Shown one piece after another: positions 498 to 27,700 of a stretch of DNA of 64,000 nt; the stretch's first letter is position 1, and every line of letters starts with the position of its first letter. Source of the DNA: Branchiostoma floridae (taxonomy: Eukaryota > Chordata > Leptocardii > Amphioxiformes > Branchiostomatidae); assembly GCF_000003815.2 (NCBI RefSeq), contig NC_049992.1, positions 13,555,105 through 13,619,104 of the forward strand. Reading direction: 5' to 3'. Made by a program: the position numbers and the translations under genes. The notes under the pieces are model-generated. The model made no database searches. It was not told the DNA's origin and saw only the letters and a list, made by a program, of their open reading frames with translations.

Positions 498-1001
498 GGC
501 AGGGTCGTGTGAACCAGCTCGGGGGAGTCTTCATCAACGGCCGCCCGCTGCCCAACCACATTCGGCACAAGATCGTGGAGATGGCCGCCGCCGGGATCCG
601 GCCCTGCGTCATCAGCCGCCAGCTTCGCGTGTCGCACGGCTGCGTCTCCAAGATCCTCTGCCGCTACCAGGAGACCGGCTCCATCAAGCCGGGCGCCATC
701 GGCGGCAGCAAGCCGCGCGTCGCTACACCCGAGGTGGAGAAGAAGATCGAGGACTACAAGAGAGACAACCCCGGCATGTTCAGCTGGGAGATCCGGGACC
801 GGCTGCTGAAGGACGGGATGTGTGACCGCAGCACCGTCCCCTCCGTCTCGTCCATCTCACGCATTCTCCGCGGAGGGAAGGGCGACGGCCGCCGCAGCGA
901 GGATGGCGACAGCGAGGACGAGCGGAGGGACGGCGAGGACGGCGAGAAGAAACGGTCCCACAGCATCGACGGCATCCTGGGCGAGAAGGGCGGCTGTCGA
1001 G
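498..1001 (+). CDS. Pax3/7: Pax3/7 copy 1 exon: paired domain and octapeptide
   Basis: Acceptor CTACCAG/GGCAGG, donor CGAG/GTGAGT; enters and leaves in phase 1. It encodes the whole 128-residue paired domain starting [10 protein letters not shown], then a linker rich in Asp, Glu, Arg and Gly, and the octapeptide HSIDGILG. Bases 498-874 differ from copy 2 at two synonymous sites only; after base 874 the two linkers diverge abruptly. Confidence 0.95.
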
Positions 1002-24764: not shown

Positions 24765-27700
24765 GTAAGCCTGCCTCCCTCTCAAGTTTAAATACGTAAG
24801 TCTTTATTGATCGCTCGTACGTCAATCAGCACATGCAACACAGGGTCAAATGGTTATCTATCTGTAGATAAAACCAAGATAACGGTCATTGGTCACGAGA
24901 TATGGTAGAATCTCTGCTTTGTAGCGTTAGTCAGTTTTACTTCTGTAACAGTGTGTCTTGTTTGCTGGATTCTAATAGCTGGATAGTACAGTTTTGACGT
25001 TTTCAAAAGAGGCAGAACAGGAAGTGAATTCTTCCAGGTAGATGACAGAACCACAACATTTTGACATATATTTCTGTTTTTTTGTTGTTGTGCGGTTATC
25101 ATAAACTCCGGTATAATTTTACAGTTTATTCTACATCTTCCGAAATTTGTTGTAGATGTTTTGCTTATGTCCTGTAAAGTAATGCAGTGTTGATTGAACT
25201 GTAGCGGAAAATTATCAAATTAGATAACATAGATTATCTGAGATGAAGCACAATTGTAAGTGTTGTGGTGTATAAGTGTAAACACGAGCCAAGCACACGA
25301 GTGCTGATGTGAAGGTCTTTGTCACCGTGCAGGGCAGGGTCGTGTGAACCAGCTCGGGGGAGTCTTCATCAACGGCCGCCCGCTGCCCAACCACATTCGG
25401 CACAAGATCGTGGAGATGGCCGCCGCCGGGATCCGGCCCTGCGTCATCAGCCGCCAGCTCCGCGTGTCGCACGGCTGCGTCTCCAAGATCCTCTGCCGCT
25501 ACCAGGAGACCGGCTCCATCAAGCCGGGCGCCATCGGCGGCAGCAAGCCGCGCGTCGCTACACCCGAGGTGGAGAAGAAGATAGAGGACTACAAGAGAGA
25601 CAACCCCGGCATGTTCAGCTGGGAGATCCGGGACCGGCTGCTGAAGGACGGGATGTGTGACCGCAGCACCGTCCCCTCCGTCTCGTCCATCTCACGCATT
25701 CTCCGCGGAAAGGGCCACAAGATCAGCGACTTGGAGATAGAGGGAGAAGACGATTTCAGCATCGACGGCGATCGGAAGCCACACAGCATTGACGGCATCC
25801 TGGGAGAGAAGAATGGTGAGTTCACATGTTCACTTCACGTCCTTAGAAAGGGCTCGGTATTCGCTGACTCAGAGTCATGACCTCTCTGATTGAAAACACG
25901 GAATAAGCACTGAACATCACGTATCTAATGTTTACTGCCACTTAAAGCGCAATACGGTGTACCTACGTAGAATTACTTTGAGATCAATGATAGTGATACT
26001 CACGTAACTAGCCTTGATGATTTCTGAATATACCACAATTGATTTTGAGTTGAATATCCTTCCCTGTGCGAAGACTATCGCCATTATCATTGTATGGCGA
26101 CTTTGTTATCATAGTTGAATGTACGTGTAAGTTTGGATGTTCATGTTTCACGTCTGTGTGTATCGTTTGGAACAGGGTCTAATCCTTTGGTTTGGTCCAA
26201 GTGTTGAGTAGAGTAGAGTTGCTTGTGTTGTGCATCATCGGTTGACGGTTCTGAACCCTCTTTCAAAAAGTGTATTCTTTCAAGCCAATTCTACTATATA
26301 GAACAGTGCGTAATTTAAATGCTGCATACTCTGCACGTCAGTATATTCTGTCATAAGGTCCCCAACACTCTTCAATACCGAGTTTTAGGTCGCTTGTGCT
26401 ACTAATATGCTGTTGTGACAATTTCTGATATTACCCCAAATATTTTACTGGATTTATATTTGCAAATTATGACCGATACATACTGGCTTAATTATTTCAA
26501 TAAGTCAGTTCTCATATCTTGTGTACGAACACATGGCTTGTAGTCCACGGTTCCCTCTATGATCTATCCGCTACTTTGTGGGTGCAGTTTTGACACATCT
26601 TTAGCGACCCAGAAGGCGTTTTGTCCGACCAGCTGTGAACTTCATTCTTTTTCTCATGGACCAGAGGTCATGAAAAGGGGGTCATAGGAAATTAGTAGGC
26701 ATGGGAAAATTCCGTCAGTGATTAATTCTTAATTAGCAGATCTGTGTTGCTTGCGCGCCCTGTTAGCACACACTTGTTTATTCTGCGTATTCGCGGGCGG
26801 ACAGTCATATGTCGGGCATTTCAAAACTTCCTCCGCTTAACACCCCAAATATAGGATGCTAATGACCCTCATGATTTACACATTATGTATGATCAACTAT
26901 GTATGATTTCTTTCTCATTTTTGCTGGTAAAAGTAATATGCCGTCACCAATATGCCGCACAGTGCACGATATACTTGAACAAAGGGTGCTGTCTTCGTAC
27001 TTTGTTCAAAACACGAGCAAGGTAAAATATAAGTCAACTGTAGTGATATTACCTAATACTCCTATTCATTGGTAATGGAATCTGGATTACATATCAAAGA
27101 CAAGCTCTTTTAAGTGTGTTGTCCAAGAAATCGGGCTGCCCGGTCGCGTGTTTTAAACAAAGTTGTCGAAACACAGATAAACTCTGTGGCAAATTCAACA
27201 AACACTGTCGTCGGCCATGACGAATCAAAACTAGCTGGCTGATAGGTACAAAAGAGGGCCACGCGTCCGGACACGTACCGGGAAACAATGCACGGACCCA
27301 GGAAAAACAAAAGCATGTGAATGAAACGAAAAGGCTTTACCCCCTTGGCTATTGACCGAAATTTGCAAGTAAAAGCTCCTTACACGTAAGAAGGAAATTC
27401 CCACATTGAGACAAGTCAAATTTAAGCGAATTACATCCTCTTCGAAGTCCAAACCTTCCCTGATTTCCAATTGAAAGGATGGCACAAAGCACGCTGTATG
27501 TGCCTTCTCGAAGAATGAGTAATTCTTGACGTTGACCTTGTTTGTGTGTGACCAAAGATCAGCTGAATGAATGCTGAACTGGATAATGAGAATTCCTTTA
27601 CGGGATCAAACCACTAACGGAAATGAGACAACACATTAGGAATTTCTCTTGAGACGATGAATTGCCAAAGGAAAAGTTCTATAGATCTTAGAAATTTTCG

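Follow-up and report, generated by a model that had tools for sequence, protein, structure and literature searches.

Near-identical DNA-binding segments in two linked Pax3/7-type genes of Branchiostoma floridae, probably maintained by recurrent gene conversion

Lancelets possess two Pax3/7 genes, Pax3/7a and Pax3/7b, whose near-identity has already been reported, with gene conversion suggested (Barton-Owen et al. 2018, PMC6010424). In the sections of that paper cited here, the paired domain, octapeptide and homeodomain are described as very strongly conserved in nucleotides and invariant in amino acids, and older gene models are said to have probably fused the two genes owing to the near-identity of their paired boxes. 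Pax3/7b is described there as having lost its first exon, and the paired-box exon of Pax3/7a as lacking a start codon. For amphioxus MRF2a and MRF2b, conversion has been offered as one option (PMC7530620). Repeats at exon boundaries in amphioxus have been termed 'mirage' minisatellites (PMC3087553, PMC3902484).

The window (the whole stretch of 64,000 nucleotides that was analysed) forms part of contig C14 of the 513-Mb genome and contains a pair of Pax3/7-type genes, designated A and B, that share one orientation and have their paired-domain exons 24.8 kb apart. Both genes show the features of Pax3/7, namely a paired domain, a paired-type homeodomain and an octapeptide. Pfam analysis gave PAX scores of 250.3 and 249 bits for the two copies and a Homeodomain score of 61.4 bits in each, and the best of four PDB sequence matches was Paired (1pdn). 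The splice sites and start codon of both genes were called from sequence signals, and the exon limits given below (all on the forward strand) are thus predicted ones. The exon of gene A for the paired domain and octapeptide is placed at 473..1001, with an in-frame ATG at 473 and an apparent donor after 1001. It is followed by homeobox exon 1 (9358..9545, edges from splice signals) and by homeobox exon 2 with the start of a linker (10629..10695) and a diverged C-terminal coding stretch (11289..11420, approximate limits). In gene B, the paired-domain exon (25333..25815) has an acceptor just upstream and an apparent donor after 25815, while homeobox exon 2 with the linker start lies at 35411..35477. 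By the published start-codon criterion (PMC6010424), the position of its ATG suggests that gene A is probably Pax3/7b; the upstream acceptor and the lack of an in-frame ATG in the paired-domain exon suggest that gene B is probably Pax3/7a. Elsewhere in the window, an inverted match of ~74% over about 240 nt that links the two gene regions (13989-14198 against 31147-31384) is probably a dispersed repeat, a 47-50-bp tandem repeat of about four copies occupies 48924-49117, and an assembly gap of 100 N is present at 43218-43317.

Two segments of near-identity were identified between these genes. The first, island 1, spans 495..874 in copy A and 25330..25709 in copy B, matching without gaps over 380 nt with two mismatches. 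The first-pass annotation of this DNA had described the paired-domain exons as almost identical, and direct comparison bears this out: between 498-874 and 25333-25709 only 2 of 377 bases differ, at 625 (T/C, CTT/CTC) and 748 (C/A, ATC/ATA), both synonymously. All 125 amino acids of the paired domain are identical, with two silent differences among 121 degenerate codons. The same annotation had the match stopping at the exon edge, which holds for the 5' end, located at the apparent splice acceptor of gene B (CAG/GGCAGG), but not for the 3' end, which falls within the exon: it coincides with the close of the paired domain and leaves 127 nt up to the gene A donor. Non-coding DNA in island 1 amounts to three bases (CAG), themselves a splice acceptor, and this scarcity counts against conversion. 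Identity drops to 27% and 36% in the 100 nt on the two sides, i.e. to background; the upstream sequences are unrelated as had been claimed, but they are probably not both introns, the gene A side being most likely 5'UTR with the start codon at 473. The annotation's statement that the downstream linkers differ in sequence and length also stands. This diverged part of gene A, comprising linker and octapeptide block, lies at 875..1001, and the octapeptide block within it (959-988) differs at 2 of 30 nt between the copies.

Near-identical exons are prone to mis-polishing, and an assembly or polishing artefact, in which the reads of one copy corrected the other, could raise the likeness of the two. 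This explanation is very unlikely, given that the two differences and the distinct flanks persist in the assembly, and that near-identity of the paired boxes has been reported from other lancelet assemblies and transcripts (PMC6010424; species unnamed in the section cited). Assembly collapse was likewise rejected: it would leave one copy, and here there are two, with different flanks and two differences.

Silent differences at identical codons separate the islands from the remainder of the genes, with 3/184 inside and 28/67 outside (Fisher p=1.4e-15, a pooled test built on the uncorrected counts of 1/63 and 6/18 given next). For homeobox exon 1 the value is 1/63 as counted, or 1/60 without three intronic codons; for the linker with octapeptide it is 6/18 as counted, or 5/17 without a codon straddling the splice donor. 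Homeobox exon 2 with its linker shows 7/22, its homeodomain part contributing one difference in 11 degenerate codons (13 identical residues), and 15/27 identical codons differ silently in the C-terminal comparison, which is of one aligned stretch and not of every exon. When codons were drawn from the exon's own usage (10,000 draws), a mean of 45 silent differences and a minimum of 29 were obtained; chance or codon bias therefore does not explain the two observed. Silent divergence between the paired domains is 2/91 sites, or 2.2%, against ~3.3% genome-wide polymorphism in individuals of B. belcheri (PMC8994340). By this yardstick, which is from another species and covers all sites, the last homogenisation was probably recent, and the island copies may differ to about the same extent as alleles do.

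Taken alone, such low silent divergence would date the copies as young, as expected if the whole genes had been duplicated recently and their flanks had changed quickly. That history is extremely unlikely here. Substitutions and length changes separate the two genes in the linkers and the C-terminal stretch, the sequence around the exons is unrelated, and both genes have been described in Asymmetron as well as Branchiostoma (PMC6010424).

Another rival is constraint at the nucleotide level, whereby a second function (enhancer, splicing code or RNA structure) would fix silent sites in both copies. The island edges coincide with domain edges, a placement equally expected under sequence constraint and in that respect a point against conversion, and high GC3 values occur (0.90 for each copy of the paired domain, 0.86-0.90 across the islands). 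GC3 is also 0.98 in the C-terminal stretch and 0.90 in the linker of gene A; as a mark of GC-biased conversion it was discarded as uninformative, since diverged stretches are equally high. Speaking against constraint, five other paired-domain loci differ silently from this one at 18/41 to 34/94 codons: 34/94 for a paired domain on contig C1, and 32/53, 26/48, 18/43 and 18/41 for four further exon loci. The predicted RNA fold was no better than that of shuffled sequences (z=+0.64), and Rfam had no match in the window. A scan of 400-1100 for bacterial promoters and terminators, which is not meaningful for an animal genome, gave no hit.

Further evidence comes from island 2, a second segment beyond the one first annotated, which covers homeobox exon 1 and adjoining intron at 9365..9622 in copy A (one exon mismatch; two mismatches and a 12-nt gap in 77 nt of intron) and at 31676..31945 in copy B (exon to 31856, then shared intron). 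Its ungapped part pairs 9365-9554 with 31676-31865 (190 nt, one mismatch), beginning 7 nt inside the apparent gene A exon, and among the coding bases 9366-9545 only 1 of 180 differs, silently, at 9473. Past the donor, the copies are identical for 9 nt and, after the 12-nt gap, match over a further 68 nt with two mismatches; the next 100 nt are repeat sequence matching at 52% without gaps. The shared intron runs, in both genes, through a tandem copy of the 3' end of homeobox exon 1 itself. Much of it is exon-derived, with only about 40 nt of plain intron, which counts against conversion. Among five scored candidates of a genome search, the gene A intron part was found only at this locus, and three matches elsewhere to the query, all on contig C7, involved exon-derived bases only.

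In gene A, the clearest intronic copy of the exon end lies at 9586..9662 (offset 107, 89.6% identical), accompanied by a weaker one. In gene B, a 119-bp unit is repeated in tandem 3.0 times at 31790..32141 and contains the exon 3' end, the GT donor and intron, which is the arrangement of a mirage minisatellite; the gene A copy is of the same type. Weaker copies occur further downstream in the homeobox introns of both genes, together with potential cryptic splice donors.

Because island 2 includes shared non-coding DNA, gene conversion is favoured over constraint. Such a constraint would have to extend into the intron and its partial exon copy, and a separate one would be required for each of the several unrelated gene pairs described below; we regard it as unlikely. 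The first-pass annotation had posed the same choice, and the shared intron DNA makes conversion the better of its two options; its restriction of conversion to the DNA-binding exon is not upheld, as there are two separate segments, one ending inside an exon and the other spilling into an intron. The two genes are thus very likely linked Pax3/7 paralogues in which recurrent interlocus gene conversion has preserved the likeness of two DNA-binding segments.

In the mechanism proposed, purifying selection on the protein would preserve enough similarity over long stretches for them to be paired in recombination, and recombination between the linked copies would then reset silent sites in the long DNA-binding stretches. 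Linkers, C-termini and introns would have diverged too far to act as templates, and for short conserved blocks (homeobox exon 2 and the 30-nt octapeptide) length is probably insufficient for conversion. Tracts would stop where homology stops, i.e. where a domain ends or, for the homeobox exon, within the shared exon-boundary repeat. If homology limits the tracts, it follows that they should end with the domains, leave silent changes in short blocks and spill over at the exon repeat. The length limit does not fit every block, however, since homeobox exon 2 is short as well and yet shows just 1/11 silent differences.

Low silent difference recurs at other linked pairs in this genome and not at the best unlinked pair. 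A homeodomain survey returned at least 135 Pfam hits genome-wide (150 of 246 candidates scored); 93 of the 135 exons, including the two of Pax3/7, were compared in 4,278 pairs, of which 3,900 had at least 30 aligned residues, and pairs under 300 kb apart were considered linked. The names given to loci other than Pax3/7 are our presumed identifications from the homeodomains. Among the 93 exons, seven linked pairs have at least 97.7% identical residues and all of these show at most 5.8% silent differences, although residue identity as a selection criterion is not independent of the outcome, as conversion would raise both measures. These are Pax3/7 (1/46), Emx-like L074/L075 (1/44; ungapped island of 150 nt, no mismatches), paired-type L054/L055 on C4 (1/35; 386 nt, three mismatches), Vent-like L028/L029 (2/54; 564 nt, eight mismatches), NK1-like L024/L032 (2/54; 181 nt, no mismatches), Nedx-like L047/L048 (1/43; 137 nt, two mismatches) and Irx-like L076/L078 (3/52; longer, patchier matches), a codon created by the splice donor being included in some counts. 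Islands were measured in five of the six further pairs and were sharply bounded in all five; in these, as in the Hox6/7-like and L113/L126 pairs described below, the 100 nt beyond on either side match at 19-43%. Further matching blocks occur near some pairs, including 214 nt at 96% for the Vent-like pair and repeats next to the exons of the Emx-like, C4 and L113/L126 pairs.

Other linked pairs are intermediate: a Hox6/7-like pair (7/50; ungapped island of 167 nt, nine mismatches), other Irx-like pairs (8/48 and 9/50), an NK2-like pair (13/50) and Uncx-like L070/L072 (6/33). Still others are unhomogenised, namely an Evx-like pair (15/40), an Lhx2/9-like pair (19/40), Uncx-like L070/L071 (17/35) and other Hox-cluster pairs (roughly 31-51%). 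The Evx-, Lhx2/9- and Uncx-like pairs show that proximity alone does not predict homogenisation, which is a point against conversion. The best unlinked pair, Mnx-like L084/L116 on two chromosomes, has 42/44 identical residues and 13/41 (32%) silent differences; it is the only unlinked pair that alike in residues. Two distant pairs on the same chromosome are exceptions to the association with linkage. A median silent difference of 46% was obtained for the 207 non-local pairs sharing 60% or more of their residues; two are low and the next lowest is 26%. One exception comprises the paired-type homeobox exons L113/L126 (C7, 1.3 Mb apart; 2/41 silent; island of 250 nt, six mismatches; mirages in both). 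The other, the homeodomain-like exons L079/L080 (C17, 0.79 Mb apart; 0/49 silent), lies inside 1,624 identical bases. This block (L093 1-1624 against L094 429-2052, inverted, 0.79 Mb apart on C17) probably arose by recent segmental duplication or by duplication in the assembly. Beyond homeobox genes, a linked T-box pair (L149/L150, 16 kb apart, inverted) shows 0/80 silent differences, with surrounding blocks matching at 77-97%, against 32-50% in 14 other T-box pairs among the six loci compared (of 34 matches).

Among split-homeobox exons from homogenised pairs, 7 of 8 have a copy of the exon nearby, against 4 of 41 other exons (Fisher 2.8e-5); counted by pair, the figures are 4/4 and 4/41 (Fisher 4.7e-4). 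This test was devised post hoc, after the data were seen. Its 41 controls comprise 34 of 36 from the homeodomain survey and seven more, in which the homeodomain match mostly ends at the usual intron; a minimum of 25 nt was applied to them, removing one 20-nt hit (L112), and flanks were about 400 nt as against 500. L113/L126 were excluded from both sides. The scan found no mirage repeat at NK1-, Vent- and Irx-like exons, whose exon ends it missed. As a requirement for homogenisation, mirage repeats were rejected, since the paired-domain exons have none. On C4, a linked pair carries an 87-bp tandem repeat (L087 1159-1755, 6.9 copies; L088 1144-1479, 3.9 copies) whose unit joins intron sequence to the 5' portion of a paired-type homeobox exon. 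Both copies of the Emx-like pair have repeats of a 39-bp family 3' of the homeobox exon (L085 1195-1531, L086 749-1161), apparently derived from the 3' end of the exon.

Orthology is routinely assigned from homeobox and paired-box sequences. If neighbours overwrite these exons, trees and dates built on them would mislead and probes would cross-react; cross-reacting probes have been noted for the Pax3/7 pair (PMC6010424). Such loci would also offer a natural test of duplicates that split their expression while bound to one common DNA-binding domain. We suggest tentatively, as a generalisation that could well prove too broad, that interlocus conversion is routine on lancelet DNA-binding exons (Pax3/7, Emx-, NK1-, Nedx-, Vent-, Irx- and T-box-like), which would evolve as one shared module alongside diverging linkers, C-termini and regulation, and that mirages mark, and may help to start, some of the exchanges.

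Among the papers listed by searches of open-licence literature on lancelet homeobox conversion and on mirages with homeobox genes, no title or abstract opening described the wider pattern, and the breadth found here (0-6% silent differences in one T-box pair and in six linked homeobox pairs besides Pax3/7) seems to be new. For the same gene pair, the silent-site test, the intron-spanning tract, the repeat and the comparison with other pairs are added by this analysis to the published account as cited (PMC6010424). Amphioxus mirages have been published for globin, Adh, TnC and PGBD5 genes (PMC3087553, PMC3902484), whereas here they occur in Pax3/7 and are common to two paralogues. Like Pax3/7, amphioxus MRF2a/2b are clustered transcription-factor genes, with a first exon identical at the protein level; they differ in being bHLH genes with two genes between them, and the evidence cited is protein phylogeny by exon (PMC7530620). 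Conversion has also been described for the homeobox duplicates engrailed and invected of hexapods (cited in PMC3199776), which are other genes in other animals. Dlxa and Dlxb of Capitella teleta resemble the Pax3/7 pair as linked homeobox duplicates that have diverged over most of their remaining sequence, with a homeobox identical 5' of the intron and for 12 nt into it, supported by GENECONV (PMC3199776). Unlike Pax3/7, they are arranged tail-to-tail and share one domain, and the part of that report cited here mentions no exon-boundary repeat.
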